Shown: piece by piece, positions 16,568 to 40,621 of the stretch
Numbering within the stretch: the first letter of the stretch is position 1
Layout: each line of letters begins with the position of its first letter
Assembly: GCA_009937615.1 (NCBI GenBank)
Contig: JAACFB010000020.1
Location: 1-64,000, forward strand
DNA: 64,000 nt
Direction: 5' to 3'
From: Gammaproteobacteria bacterium
GTDB taxonomy: Bacteria > Pseudomonadota > Gammaproteobacteria > Steroidobacterales > Woeseiaceae
The notes under the pieces: generated by a model
Database searches by the model: none
What the model was told of the DNA's origin: nothing
What the model saw: only the letters and a program-made list of their open reading frames with translations
Program-made: the position numbers and the translations under genes

Positions 16568-16903
16568 GAGAACGTCGGAGTCGGCGAGACAATCGCTGTA
16601 GCGCTTGCGCTGCGGAGGAAAGTCCGGGCTCCATCGGACAGGGCGCCAGGTAACGCCTGGAGGGCGTGAGCCCATGGAAAGTGCCACAGAAAACAAACCG
16701 CCGGGCTTTGCCCGGTAAGGGTGAAAAGGTGCGGTAAGAGCGCACCGCGCGACTGGTAACAGCTCGCGGCACGGTAAACCCCGCCTGGAGCAAGACCAAA
16801 TAGGGGACTTCCGGGTAGGTCGCTAGAGGCAGTCGGTGACGGCTGTCCCAGATGAATGGTTGTCGCTCACAGAACCCGGCTTATTGCCGGCTCCGACTTT
16901 CTC
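16568..16903 (+). ncRNA. rnpB: RNase P RNA, bacterial type A
   Basis: The catalytic RNA that trims tRNA 5' leaders. Universally conserved blocks are present in order: GAGGAAAGTCCGGGCTCC near 16614, GGTAACGCC, ACAGAAAACAAACCGCC, GGTAAGGGTGAAA, GTGCGGTAAGAGCGCACCGC, AGATGAATG and ACAGAACCCGGCTTA. The ends were placed by the terminal helix: GAGAACGTCGGAGTCGGC at the 5' end pairs with GCCGGCTCCGACTTTCTC at the 3' end. The rsmI-rnpB-mraZ order matches Pseudomonas. The segment between AAATAGGGG and CCGGGTAGG is only four bases, so P16/P17 and the dependent P6 seem to be absent. Confidence 0.95.
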
Positions 16904-35028: not shown

Positions 35029-35937
35029 ATGCTAAGACAACGAACAATCAAAACGGCTATACGCGCAACGGGCGTAGGCCTGCACACAGGCGAAAAGGTC
35101 TACATGACCCTGCGGCCTGCGGCCGAAAACTCCGGCATTACCTTCCGCCGCGTCGACCTTGATTCCCCCGTGGATATCCCTGCAGACGCACGGCTGGTCG
35201 GTGAGACAATGCTGGGCACCACGTTGATCAAGGACGGCGTCAAGGTAGCAACCGTCGAACACCTGATGTCGGCACTCGCCGGCCTGGGTATCGACAATGT
35301 CAACGTCGATCTTTCGGCGCCCGAGGTGCCGATAATGGACGGCAGCGCCGGCCCCTTCGTCTTCCTGCTGCAGTCAGCCGGCATCGAGGAACAGAACGCG
35401 CCGAAGCGATTCGTGCGCATCAACAGGAAAGTGCGCGTCGAAGATGGTGATAAGTGGGCCGAACTCCTTCCTTTCAACGGCTTCAAGGTCAACTTCGAGG
35501 TGTACTTCAACCACCCCGTGTTCAACAAGCTCAAGCAGCACGCGACCATTGATTTTTCGTCGACGTCATTCCTAAAGGAAGTCAGCCGCGCACGGACATT
35601 TTGTTTCCTGCGGGACGTTGAGGCATTACGCGAGCGCAATCTTACGTTGGGCGGCAGCATGGACAATGCGATCGTGCTCGACGACTATCGCATTTTGAAT
35701 GAGGACGGTTTGCGATACGCGAACGAGTTCGTCATCCACAAGGTTCTCGATGCGATCGGCGACATCTATCTCCTCGGTCACTGCGTGATTGGTGAGTTCA
35801 GAGCGTTCAAGTCGGGGCACGATCTTAACAACAAGTTGTTGCGTGCGTTGCTCGCAGAGGAAGCCGCCTGGGACGAAGTCACGTTCGCCGATTCACGCAA
35901 GTCTCCGATCTCGTATGCAACGCCCTCGTATGCCTGA
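35029..35937 (+). CDS. lpxC: UDP-3-O-acyl-N-acetylglucosamine deacetylase LpxC
   Basis: A 302-residue zinc deacetylase, the committed step of lipid A synthesis. The first zinc ligand is His78 in [10 protein letters not shown] (E. coli His79); the other ligands lie in [14 protein letters not shown], and the catalytic-pocket His is in FKSGHDLNN. The start [20 protein letters not shown] matches the family start. It follows the dcw cluster as in E. coli and Pseudomonas. It is convergent with dciA; no SecM-like gene follows. Confidence 0.98.
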
Positions 35938-35990: not shown

Positions 35991-36302
35991 TTAGCTGTCG
36001 GTCGTTGTTCTGCAGACGCGTATCTCGCAGGCGTCAACTTTTGAATCCGTCTCGCGCGCCGCTGCGATCAGAGTTCCGGACTCGAAACGCAGCCGGGATG
36101 CCCACGCCGAAGAACTGACGAGCACGATGAGGCGGCTGTCGTCGCGAATATTGGCCGCAACGATGCTGTTCGCTTCGTCTGCCGGGAGCGATTTCTGCAG
36201 GATCTGCACCAGGTCGCCCATTTCGCGGGCGTGCCGGATAATATCGCCTAACTCCTCGTTATTATTAGGATTTAGTAAACTCTCGAGGCGTTTTATGGGC
36301 AT
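35991..36302 (-). CDS. dciA: DciA family helicase-loading protein (DUF721)
   Basis: A 103-residue DUF721 protein. The diagnostic C-terminal half is VAANIRDDSRLIVLVSSSAW followed by ASRLRFE, matching the KH-like domain of DciA. In bacteria lacking DnaC, DciA loads or supports the DnaB helicase at replication origins. The same gene sits between lpxC and an M23 gene in Pseudomonas. It is convergent with lpxC and divergent from the M23 gene. No good ribosome-binding site was seen. Confidence 0.82.
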   Translation of the reverse strand: MPIKRLESLLNPNNNEELGDIIRHAREMGDLVQILQKSLPADEANSIVAANIRDDSRLIVLVSSSAWASRLRFESGTLIAAARETDSKVDACEIRVCRTTTDS

Positions 36303-36346: not shown

Positions 36347-36375
36347 TTGGCTCACCGTTGGGGACACGCTATCTT
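36347..36375 (+). promoter_or_regulatory. Possible promoter for the riboswitch-M23 transcript
   Basis: TTGGCT (36347-36352) and TATCTT (36370-36375) are 17 bases apart, each matching four of six consensus positions. Transcription would start near 36382, about 25 bases before the riboswitch core. Confidence 0.4.
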
Positions 36376-36404
36376 GTAATAAAAACCGACATTATGCATA
36401 TTGT

Positions 36405-36500
36405 TGTTCTCGACAAGGGCAAACCCGGTGAAAAACGGGGGCGCAAAACCACCGGTCTAAGGGAATCTATCCTATGACAGCGGGGCTTCCGAAGTGACTC
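36405..36500 (+). promoter_or_regulatory. Cyclic-di-GMP-I (GEMM) riboswitch
   Basis: The aptamer core is read directly in order. AAGGGCAAACC is at 36415-36425 and a GAAA loop at 36430-36433. Next comes GGGGCGCAAAACCACCGG, then TCTAAGGG, and then CCTATGACAGCGGGGCTTCC ending near 36490, followed by GAAG. These match the GEMM-I consensus blocks (GGGCAAACC, GAAA tetraloop, GGGaCGCAAAGCC, CCGGcCTAA, AGCxGGG), including the tetraloop helix and the second helix closed by AGG/CCT. It is on the same strand as the M23 gene, with about 115 bases between it and the ATG. The expression platform is not obvious; two further hairpins (36505-36541 and 36553-36571) lie between. Confidence 0.85.
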
Positions 36501-36552
36501 ATTACCGCAGGAACGGAAAAATAAGACAACACCTGCTGCGGCCTGGCTGCTG

Positions 36553-36571
36553 TTCGTCAACAATTGACGAA
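36553..36571 (+). repeat. Perfect 8-bp hairpin upstream of the M23 gene
   Basis: TTCGTCAA and TTGACGAA flank CAA. The following run is A, not T, so it is not a terminator on this strand. It lies between the riboswitch and the ATG at 36616 and may be part of the expression platform. Confidence 0.45.
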
Positions 36572-36615
36572 AAAAACAACAATAAATCGACTCAATTATG
36601 TTCAGGGCACTCTCG

Positions 36616-37548
36616 ATGAATGTGGTGATCTTTGGCAACGGTTTCGCCCGGCCAAGACAGCTGAATCTTTCCGGCGTATCAGCAGGGGCTTGTGCCTTTG
36701 TGTTTGCGGTCATTGTCTCGGCCGCGGGATTTGCCGGCGGCTACTGGTACTCGACCATGACGGGGTCGGGCATCAGTGTTAACGACGTCGCCGATCTGAG
36801 CGATGAACTGCAATTGCAGCGGGACAATATCTCGACGATACGGCAGGCCAACGAAGATACACTCGACGCCCTGGCTATCAGGATTGCGCAAATGAATGCG
36901 CGGGTAATCCGCCTTGATGCGCTCGGTCGCCGCCTGACGGAGATGGCCGAACTGGAAGAGGGCGAGTTTGACTTTGGGTCGGAGCCGGCGCTCGGTGGTC
37001 CTGAAGAGCCGGCTGCTGCGGGCTCGAACGTTGCCATACCGGACGTCGTCGAGGCGATGCAGTCACTCGACAATCGGCTCGATGATCGGGAGGCTCAGCT
37101 AGGCGTGCTCGAAAGCCTGCTGATGAACCAGAATCTCAAGGCACGCGTCTACCCGCAGGGGCGCCCGGTCAACTCGGGCTGGATATCGTCCTATTTCGGC
37201 AAGCGGACCGACCCGTTCACCGGCAAGCCCGCAAATCATACGGGCATCGACTTCGCAGGCAAAATGGGTGCTGAAGTGATTGCCGTGGCGGATGGCGTCG
37301 TCACGTGGTCCGCTGACCGGTACGGGTACGGGGTCATGGTGGAGATCAACCACGGTAACGGCTATGCGACACGTTACGCACACAACTCCGAAAACCTGGT
37401 CGCGGTCGGCGATGAGGTCAGGAAGGGTCAGATCGTGGCGCTGATGGGCGAGACAGGACGGGCGACGGGACCAAATCTGCACTTCGAGGTGCTCAAGAAT
37501 GGCCGGCGCGTTAATCCCGTCAATTTTACCCGCGCGTCGTCTCAGTAA
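36616..37548 (+). CDS. Membrane-anchored M23 (LytM-type) peptidase
   Basis: A 310-residue protein with one N-terminal membrane helix (about residues 18-42), a periplasmic coiled coil (about 55-100, ELQLQRDNISTIRQANEDTL), an Ala/Glu-rich linker and a C-terminal M23 domain (about 185-305). Metal and catalytic residues are present: NHTGIDFAG, ATRYAHNSE and GPNLHFEV. So it is predicted to be an active peptidoglycan endopeptidase rather than a degenerate EnvC-type activator. The ATG at 36616 has AGGG eight bases upstream; an earlier ATG at 36598 has no such site. A homologue lies at the same place, between the DUF721 gene and secA, in Pseudomonas. A cyclic-di-GMP riboswitch precedes it. Confidence 0.88.
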   Translation: MNVVIFGNGFARPRQLNLSGVSAGACAFVFAVIVSAAGFAGGYWYSTMTGSGISVNDVADLSDELQLQRDNISTIRQANEDTLDALAIRIAQMNARVIRLDALGRRLTEMAELEEGEFDFGSEPALGGPEEPAAAGSNVAIPDVVEAMQSLDNRLDDREAQLGVLESLLMNQNLKARVYPQGRPVNSGWISSYFGKRTDPFTGKPANHTGIDFAGKMGAEVIAVADGVVTWSADRYGYGVMVEINHGNGYATRYAHNSENLVAVGDEVRKGQIVALMGETGRATGPNLHFEVLKNGRRVNPVNFTRASSQ

Positions 37549-37684
37549 GCCCTTTATCGAGCGACGTCACCGGCGTCCTCGAGAACCCGGAAATCACCCA
37601 TAGTTCCTGAGTTTCGTTACAATAGCGGGCTTTGCTCGCGAGGATGCCGGCGGGCTTTAGTCCGAACCTCATGCAGGAGCCCAT

Positions 37685-40621
37685 GTGGCCAACTTTCTGA
37701 CTCGAATTTTCGGTAGTCGCAATCAGCGACTGCTTCGCAATTACTCCAAAATCGTCCGCAGGATCAACTCATTCGAAGAGGGTCTGAAGGCTCTCGACGA
37801 TTCTGCGTTGCGTGCCAAGTCGGATGAGTTCAGGAAGCGTTTTGCCGACGGCGATTCCCTGCAAGACCTGCTGCCGGAAGCCTTTGCGGTAGCCAGGGAG
37901 GCGGCGGTTCGGACGCTGGGTATGCGGCCTTTCGACGTACAGCTGATCGGCGGCATGGTGCTGCACGATGGCAATATTGCCGAGATGCGAACCGGTGAGG
38001 GCAAGACGCTGGTTGCGACCTTACCAGCGTACCTCAATGCGATGAGCGGCGCCGGCGTGCATATCGTTACGGTCAATGAATACCTGGCACAGCGAGATGC
38101 TGACTGGATGCGGCCCGTTTACGAGTTTCTGGGGCTTACCGTCGGCGTGTCCAGAAGCGGCCAGACCCAGGAGGAAAAACGCGAGGCCTACGGCAGCGAT
38201 ATCACCTACGCTACGAACAACGAGCTCGGTTTCGACTACCTTCGGGACAATCTTGCGTTTTCTCTTGAGGATAAGGTGCTACGCAAACTCAATTTCGCGA
38301 TTGTCGACGAAGTTGACTCGATCCTCATTGACGAAGCGCGAACGCCGCTGATCATCTCCGGGCCCGCGGAAGCCAGCACCGATCTTTATGCCCAGATCAA
38401 CAAGCTGATACCCAGGCTCAAACCGCACGCAGAGCCCGACGGGTCGACCAACTTCGACATTCCTGCGAAACGAGTGAGACTCGTTGACGAAAATGGCAAG
38501 CCCGTCACTGCCCAAGGCGAGGACGGATCGGACACCGACGTCATGAGCCTCGAGGACGCCGTCGACATCGGGGAGTCGCGCCAGGCCGACGTCGTTCTCG
38601 TCGATGACAGCGACAAGATTGCGGCCTGCAGGCTGGCCAAAAGAGGTCACTTTACAACGGACGAAAAGGCCAAACAGGCGCACGTTACCGAGGAAGGGCA
38701 TCAGCAGGTGGAGACGCTGATGACGCGCGCCGGCTTGCTGAAAGAGGGCGAGACGCTTTACGACGCGGGCAATATACGCCTGCTGCATCACCTCAACGCC
38801 GCGCTGCGCGCGCACGCGATCTATCAACGGGATGTCGATTACATCGTGAAAGACGGCGAAGTCGTGATCGTCGACGAATTTACGGGCCGGACGATGCCGG
38901 GACGGCGCTGGTCGGATGGTTTGCACCAGGCCATCGAGGCCAAGGAAGGTGTCGCCATCAAGCAGGAAAATCAGACCGTCGCGTCGATTACGTTCCAGAA
39001 CTATTTTCGCCTGTACAGCAACCTGTCGGGAATGACGGGTACCGCGGATACGGAGGCCTTCGAGTTTCAGCAGATCTACGGACTCGAAGTCGTCGTGATC
39101 CCCACACATCGGCAGATGATTCGTGACGATGCGCCGGATCTTGTCTATCTCACGCAGAAGGACAAGTTCGAGGCGATCATCGAGGACATCATGGACTGCA
39201 GGGAGCGAGGCCAGCCAGTACTCGTCGGCACGACATCGATCGAGACCTCGGAGTTACTGTCGAGTTTGCTGAGCAAACGTAAGATCGACCATGAAGTGCT
39301 GAATGCGAAACAGCATGAGCGTGAAGCGATTGTTGTCCAGCAGGCCGGCAAGCCTGGCGCGATAACGATCGCGACCAACATGGCGGGCCGCGGCACCGAT
39401 ATCGTGCTCGGTGGCAATCTCGACGCCGAGTTAGCTGCGGCCGGCGAGGGGGCGGATACCGAGGCTATTCGAGCCGCATGGCAGCAGCGCCACGACGCTG
39501 TGATCGAGTCCGGCGGACTGCATATCATCGGGACCGAGCGCCACGAGTCCCGGCGCATCGACAACCAGCTGCGCGGCCGCTCAGGCCGGCAGGGCGATCC
39601 GGGATCGAGCCGCTTTTACCTGTCGATGGAAGATACCCTGATGCGGATATTCGGCGACCCGGATCGGACCAAGTCGTTGCTGGCGCGTGCGGGAATGCGG
39701 GAAGGCGAGGCGATTGAAAGCAAGTTGCTGTCGCGGCAGATCGAGCGCGCCCAACGCAAAGTGGAGGCGCACAACTTTGATATTCGTAAGAACCTGCTCG
39801 AATACGACGATGTTGCCAATGACCAGCGGAAGGTCGTATACCACCAGCGCTCCGAGCTCATGGAGGCTGACGAAATCGAGGAATCGGTTGCCGCCATTCG
39901 AGATGAAGTGATCGCCGATACCGTTCAGCAGTACATTCCGCCGGGCAGTCTCGAGGAACAGTGGGATGCAGATGGGCTGACCCAGGCCCTCGAGTCGGAC
40001 TTCGGCTTACGCCTCGATATTTCGCGCTGGGTTCGTGAAGACAAGACGCTCAACGACGAGGGCATCGTCGAGCGCTGCGTCGAGGAAGCCCAGCAGGCGT
40101 ACAAGAAGAGAGAGAGCTCTATCGGCAGCGAACTCATGCGCAATGTCGAAAAGCAGGTCATGCTGCGGCAGCTCGATTTTCACTGGAAGGAGCATCTCGC
40201 CGGCATGGACCACCTGCGGCAGGGTATCGGGTTGCGTTCATACGCGCAGAAAAATCCCAAGCAGGAATACAAGCGCGAGGCGTTTGAGATGTTTGGTGCC
40301 ATGCTGGATCAGGTCAAGCACGACACCATCAGCATACTGACCCGTATTCGGATACAGGGCGAGCAGGATCTGGATGATACGGCTGAACGCCGGCGCGCGG
40401 CAGCGGCGATGCGCTTTCAGCATGCAGAAGCTTCAGCGCTGGGCACCGGCGCGGCCGGGGCGCCGCCGGCAGCAGGCCAGCAACAGGCCGGTCCGGTGGC
40501 GGCACCGCCTCCGGAGCCGGTTGCGCCGTTCGTGCGCGAGGGCCGCAAGGTGGGGCGCAACGAACCTTGTCCCTGCGGTTCGGGCAAGAAATTCAAGCAG
40601 TGCCACGGCAAACTGGGCTGA
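37685..40621 (+). CDS. secA: Preprotein translocase ATPase SecA
   Basis: A 978-residue motor that drives secretory proteins through SecYEG. Walker A is RTGEGKT (102-108), Walker B is [14 protein letters not shown], and the second ATPase half has [13 protein letters not shown] and [12 protein letters not shown]. The C-terminal zinc motif [14 protein letters not shown] binds SecB or ribosomes. The protein is longer than E. coli SecA (901). Most of the excess is an acidic, valine-rich insertion at about residues 245-320, between INKLIPRLK and FTTDEKAKQ. The start is GTG with AGGAG five bases upstream; the overlapping ATG at 37683 soon hits a stop. No SecM-like arrest gene precedes it. Confidence 0.97.

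Follow-up and report, generated by a model that had tools for sequence, protein, structure and literature searches.

A c-di-GMP-I riboswitch that may gate a short upstream reading frame overlapping the start of a secA-adjacent M23 gene in Woeseiaceae-type bacteria

A c-di-GMP-I riboswitch upstream of an M23-family gene next to secA appears, with a probability that we put at about 0.68, to gate translation initiation on a short leader reading frame (hereafter referred to as the uORF), which would relay ribosomes to M23. The locus lies in a stretch of 64,000 nucleotides (hereafter referred to, at its full length, as the window), which was compared with related genomes. Sequence comparison established the presence of the aptamer, its linkage to M23, the uORF start, the open frame and the overlap of the uORF with M23, without clear selection on the peptide. 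In the proposed mechanism, one strand of an aptamer helix doubles as the ribosome-binding site of the uORF, the start codon of which abuts the aptamer. At low c-di-GMP concentrations, ribosomes would load onto the uORF, translate its roughly 40 codons, terminate at an ATGA overlap and reinitiate on M23. At high concentrations, the aptamer would close, the uORF site would be buried, the arrival of ribosomes would stop and M23 production would fall, so that the relay would work as a translational OFF switch. M23 expression probably depends on uORF translation. An earlier note on this DNA had proposed that a c-di-GMP riboswitch controls M23; the aptamer is indeed found upstream of the gene in 79 of 80 loci, but control looks indirect, passing through the short uORF.

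The locus comprises, in order, lpxC (35029-35937), the gene for DciA in the opposite direction, the aptamer, M23 and secA (Table 1). As the DciA gene is divergent, transcription of the aptamer presumably originates in the preceding 105-bp gap. The earlier note was correct in placing an M23 gene (PF01551) after the aptamer and secA 136 bases 3' of it. Translation of M23 could formally begin at ATG 36598, but relatives share only the equivalent of ATG 36616, which is therefore the most likely start. At six related loci (L059, L060, L061, L062, L064 and L065), the end at which the lpxC match begins gave incomplete hits to the Xoo8 sRNA family (RF02243), which are truncated there and do not reach the gathering score. 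Elsewhere in the window, an RNase P RNA of bacterial class A was recognized at 16577-16898 (+; 323 bits).

Table 1. Features of the aptamer-M23-secA locus, in window coordinates.
Feature	Position	Strand	Basis or remark
DciA ("DUF721")	35991-36302	-	PF05258 match
Promoter-like block: TTGTAA (36374-36379), 17 nt, CATATT (36397-36402)	36374..36402	+	immediately 5' of aptamer
c-di-GMP-I aptamer (RF01051)	36408..36493	+	76.8 bits
GGGG, Shine-Dalgarno-like, uORF	36482..36485	+	aptamer 3' helix strand, 8 nt before GTG
uORF, GTG start abutting aptamer, 41 codons, stop TGA 36617-36619	36494..36619	+	sequence comparison
AGGG, Shine-Dalgarno-like, M23	36604..36607	+	8 nt before ATG
ATGA, uORF stop/M23 start overlap	36616..36619	+	
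M23-family protein, 310 aa	36616..37548	+	PF01551, E 7.6e-33 (scored on longer frame from 36598)
TACAATA, promoter -10-like box before secA	37618..37624	+	
secA, GTG start	37685..40621	+	ORF; SecA adjoins M23 in relatives

A cmscan of the 64-kb window with Infernal returned a significant, untruncated match to RF01051 (E 2.5e-13; gathering score of the family, 35) over the full length of the model, with the sequence and the two-hairpin structure expected of the class, in agreement with the GEMM-I core motifs recognized by the earlier note. Two overlapping members of the same clan excepted, no further Rfam family was found between 35900 and 37700 at E ≤10. The source genome has 14 GGDEF matches and eight c-di-GMP-I matches at E ≤0.001, six of them above the cut-off, with the M23-locus aptamer ranking second. 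Five of the eight (L001, L003, L005, L006 and L007), four of which exceed the cut-off, cluster within 40 kb on a single contig (G000:C69 77792-117334); among four ORFs tested downstream of these clustered aptamers, one matched He_PIG, one matched SCPU (spore coat U) and two had no Pfam match. At a related locus (L134), a second c-di-GMP-I match (16-129, -; 51.6 bits with model R1) lies near M23 on the opposite strand.

The residues aligned with Vc2 G20, A47 and C92, in a numbering that we have ourselves placed onto these aptamers, were kept in 80/80 loci, as judged with a loose pattern. These three residues are described as ligand contacts (PMC4744006). The window RNA is predicted to bind c-di-GMP. 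The cGAMP (GEMM-Ib) variant, which has A rather than G at the G20 equivalent, was rejected, as the window has G at this position and the pattern matched in 80/80 loci. Both the GAAA tetraloop and its P3 receptor are present in the window aptamer; over the 80 loci, both were present in 57, both absent in 15 and the pair was mixed in eight (several unparsed). Loss of the P2 GAAA loop accompanies loss of the P3 receptor (e.g. L044, L047, L050, L054 and L055), a paired loss that looks like a swapped tertiary contact. A second model of the clan, RF03167 (c-di-GMP-I-GGC), scored highest at 17 of the 46 related M23 loci with a match (L048, L060 and 15 others), three of the 17 matches (L068, L090 and L091) falling under its gathering score. 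The c-di-GMP-I-GGC ligand class was rejected: the G in the CGCGAA of its consensus, which corresponds to A47, reads A in 47/47 aligned aptamers, window included, and because A replaces the characteristic G, the RF03167-scoring aptamers are read as ordinary c-di-GMP-I. Automatic annotation could therefore assign the wrong ligand class, given that RF03167 outscores RF01051 on aptamers lacking its G.

The closest named relatives include many Woeseiaceae or Woeseia MAGs, others being named only as Gammaproteobacteria or Proteobacteria. Matches to c-di-GMP-I were obtained in 54 of the 60 genomes of the relative set, source genome counted. The aptamer lies 5' of M23, on the same strand, in 79/80 named loci, the exception (L184) beginning at a contig end. 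Within the relative set, it was found upstream at 35/35 same-genus secA-adjacent M23 loci besides that of the window, including L068, which scores 54.0 bits with RF03167, under that model's gathering score of 59; one genome of the same genus (G036) gave no match in the M23 search of this set. Two genomes of about 1.5 Mb (G004 and G011) have a single c-di-GMP-I match each, and in both a match is present at the M23 locus (L070 and L071). In other families of the order, the aptamer was found at 11 of 20 secA-adjacent M23 loci (L090 and L091 below gathering) and nine were without it; one locus without an aptamer call (L076) retains a remnant of 17.8 bits. Three further M23 copies away from secA (L093-L095) have no aptamer. 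Beyond the order, M23 matches were obtained in 128/229 genomes of the class sample, and the 108 loci drawn from the 126 outside-order genomes with such a match yielded no aptamer (0/108, at both E ≤0.01 and E ≤0.1) with a search model built from this order's aptamers, which could miss a very divergent one. SecA lies downstream on the same strand in 27 of the 28 outside-order loci at which the neighbour was checked (with about 1.2 kb between M23 and SecA in L197), the 28th being cut by a contig end. The contrast between 79/80 named loci and 0/108 outside the order identifies the aptamer, on this sequence comparison, as a lineage-specific gain: it was added to an older lpxC-M23-secA locus within a single order, some members of which lack it. 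The suggestion in the earlier note that a conserved M23 locus has gained the aptamer thus holds.

The spacer between aptamer and M23 varies in length from 94 to 152 nt over 80 loci (the window and 79 named loci), and its alignment contains triplet-sized gaps, with a start codon abutting the aptamer. This start codon lies 0-3 nt 3' of the aptamer in 79/80 loci (GTG in 53, ATG in 15 and TTG in 11). In those 79 loci, the frame stays open over 31-50 codons and ends in a stop that overlaps the start of M23, by four bases in 70 and by one base in nine. Stop codons occur at 1/3124 codons in the uORF frame of the spacers, 157/3128 in the M23 frame and 269/3127 in the third. In the failing locus (L176), a stop closes the frame 17 nt before M23; in another (L167), the codon aligned with the M23 start reads ATA. 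Among the 36 loci of the same genus in the relative set, which overlap in source with the 80-locus set, 35 show the stop/start overlap, and in L054 the stop directly precedes an ATG; in L046, L053, L056 and L061, codon 1 is GCG or ACG, followed by ATG. Eight of the 11 aptamer loci from other families of the order have an overlapping uORF; of the others, L084 has a uORF ending 4 nt short, L090 has an abutting ATG whose frame continues into M23, and L078 lacks a uORF start. The ATGA by itself is weak evidence, because 32 of 37 M23 loci lacking an aptamer call also read it at the M23 start. Overlapping ORFs of at least 30 aa were found in only three of these 37 loci (L076, L196 and L209), and a start at -2 to +4 in 5 of 24 non-M23 aptamer loci, mostly of the same lineage (25 loci, less L007, which was left out because of a contig end), although the windows and start choices of these controls differ slightly from those of the 80-locus analysis, making the comparison inexact. 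Two of those five starts open frames that nominally overlap a long ORF, in our judgement away from its real start. With only 5/24, an abutting start was rejected as a general platform of this lineage. The anatomy of a riboswitch-controlled coupling uORF, a short frame running from the switch and overlapping the gene start, was thus found in 79/80 loci.

A GGGG or GGAG lies within the 3' strand of the aptamer in 80/80 loci, at 8 nt from the uORF start in 66/79 and at 9-11 nt in 13/79. As this site forms a strand of an aptamer helix, closure of the aptamer should bury it. M23 has a Shine-Dalgarno-like site of its own, most commonly GGGG or GAGG in relatives, and might initiate alone. Two other platforms were rejected. 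No terminator-like site was found on the + strand between 35900 and 37800, M23-secA gap included, and folding of the whole leader resembled that of shuffles (z of 0.03 and -0.70), speaking against an intrinsic terminator. A hairpin over the M23 Shine-Dalgarno site was too weak on related sequences (best helix, 257/320 pairs; shuffle mean 245, maximum 253). A silent uORF might, however, expose the leader to Rho, in which case c-di-GMP would act by transcription termination rather than through lost reinitiation. With the uORF silent, some 120 nt of leader would carry no ribosomes, the + strand offers no terminator-like site, and the same alternative is named for the uPPE2 frame of Mycobacterium tuberculosis (PMC11260477); the stop/start overlap, however, would have to be explained in some other way, and we consider Rho a doubtful explanation.

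With unconstrained folding of the 80 loci, the mean pairing probability of the uORF site was 0.76 (0.65 when all aptamer partners are counted, 0.30 for the native strand). Because the site is already paired without ligand, folding energetics leave the direction unsettled; the predicted ligand-free folds permit an OFF switch but fall short of proving it. The same relay could operate as an ON switch, the ligand freeing the uORF site from alternative pairing such that M23 would rise with c-di-GMP. Such a reading draws on the extensive pairing of the site outside its native helix and on Vc1, through which c-di-GMP promotes expression (PMC4744006). The site nevertheless belongs to a helix needed by the bound aptamer, and we regard an ON switch as unlikely. 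We lean towards OFF as the direction of the proposed uORF relay.

The block TTGTAW-N17-CATAKT immediately precedes the aptamer in 80/80 loci. A generic sigma-70 scan did not report the TTGTAA-N17-CATATT of the window, which we nevertheless infer to act as a promoter; because the block directly precedes the aptamer in all 80 loci, the transcript probably begins at about the first aptamer base. A second promoter-like box, TA[GCA]AATA, follows the M23 stop within 257 nt in 75 of 77 usable loci, against 1/77 after one shuffle, and secA thus probably has its own promoter, making shared control by readthrough unnecessary. The earlier note had suggested that readthrough might place secA partly under the same signal. 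This idea is weakened by the box and by the variable length of the M23-secA gap (109 to 251 nt over 68 parsed loci), although the + strand has no terminator-like site between M23 and secA to exclude readthrough; direct control of secA by the riboswitch is improbable.

We examined the substitutions in the uORF in 79 pairs of sequences of equal length and 70-97% identity, which are not independent. Changes were distributed over the three codon positions as 463/594/542, with no third-position excess, and the pooled dN/dS was 0.74, lying between the values for the same stretch in the two shifted frames (0.99 and 0.59). By comparison, codons 1-40 of M23 gave a dN/dS of 0.19 and a strong third-position excess. 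The uORF peptide is rich in Arg (16%), varies in length from 31 to 50 aa and has no invariant alignment columns; the start codon aside, uniformity is highest in the C-terminal columns, which coincide with the M23 Shine-Dalgarno stretch. The frame is thus kept in these sequences, but the peptide hardly so, and the dN/dS of 0.74 together with the lack of third-position excess suggests that selection maintains translation across the spacer, with no clear action on the peptide. There may be weak constraint on the peptide, compatible with a dN/dS of about 0.75. A hairpin within the uORF (GCAAGUU...AACUUGC) is clear in the group with 119-nt spacers (28 sequences among L105-L183; consensus energy of -9.0, with column shuffles at -0.55). 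It is slight in the group with 122-nt spacers (41 sequences; -0.7 against 0.0), and was rejected as part of a general mechanism. On balance, we favour a relay in which only the frame counts: the peptide would drift, the start, openness and overlap would be kept, and selection would act on ribosome delivery, the arrangement having arisen within one order. That the uORF encodes a functional small protein or a SecM-like arrest peptide, itself the target of the riboswitch, would suit the strictly kept frame, the Arg-rich composition and the position upstream of secA, which in Escherichia coli is preceded by secM, but is very improbable given the substitution pattern, the lack of invariant columns and the variable length.

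The product of M23 may not be an ordinary peptidase. In the window protein, HxxxD is present as HTGID, whereas HxH reads N-L-H. Asn replaces the first His of HxH in 70/70 Woeseiaceae-type M23 proteins read by pattern (nine of the 79 were unread), with the remainder of the H...D / H / HxH pattern intact, whereas this His is kept in 27/28 outside-order proteins by reading of the printed motifs (the pattern itself read 9/28). This His is needed in LytM-type enzymes. Membership of the M23 domain family stands, and by sequence the protein comes closest, among solved structures, to M23 peptidases (e.g. 3slu and ShyA), but peptidase activity is uncertain, and altered or lost catalysis is possible. 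The cell-wall cleavage envisaged in the earlier note is therefore in doubt, although its family assignment is not. The H-to-N change was rejected as a companion of the riboswitch: aptamer-bearing L080, L081, L082, L084, L090 and L091 keep His, and aptamer-less L076, L079, L083, L085, L086, L087, L088 and L089 read Asn.

By its anatomy, the closest working analogue is the B12 riboswitch-ppe2 system of M. tuberculosis. There, uPPE2 translation is reported to be essential for PPE2, with an AUGA overlap, termination-reinitiation and a translational OFF switch (PMC11260477). Both systems have a riboswitch-linked short uORF with a stop/start overlap, known here from anatomy, but they differ in ligand, aptamer and phylum. 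According to the same study, the PPE2 ORF lacks a Shine-Dalgarno motif (PMC11260477), whereas M23 has one; here, furthermore, the uORF ribosome site lies inside the aptamer and the frame is kept in 79/80 loci without clear peptide conservation. Vc2 of Vibrio cholerae, of the same aptamer class, is described as a translational OFF switch that masks a ribosome-binding site (PMC9262584), similar to the repression proposed here, but in the passages available its masked site is distant from the aptamer domain and no uORF is described (PMC9262584). In Erwinia amylovora, c-di-GMP acts on cell aggregation and on EagA, a c-di-GMP-dependent M23 endopeptidase of the MepM type (PMC7705223), which likewise links c-di-GMP to an M23-family protein, as proposed here. 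The effect is, however, transcriptional, and EagA is a LysM-bearing MepM homologue of the znu cluster rather than the secA-adjacent M23; the passages available describe no aptamer at the gene (PMC7705223). Searches of the open literature found no report of a c-di-GMP riboswitch with an M23 peptidase and none of a Woeseia riboswitch, and, among the matches listed for c-di-GMP riboswitches and peptidoglycan endopeptidases, titles and abstract openings do not name this locus.

Annotation usually runs from an aptamer to the next annotated gene, whereas the start that seems to be regulated here is that of a short frame between the two. If confirmed, the c-di-GMP-I expression platform would consist of a ribosome site within the aptamer plus a coupling uORF, a type of platform described, among the papers listed from the open literature searched, only for a B12 switch, and about 80 natural variants are available for testing it. 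The locus is also a clean example of a frame that is maintained although its peptide is not clearly conserved. Confirmation would place a secA-adjacent protein under the control of c-di-GMP in Woeseiaceae-type bacteria.
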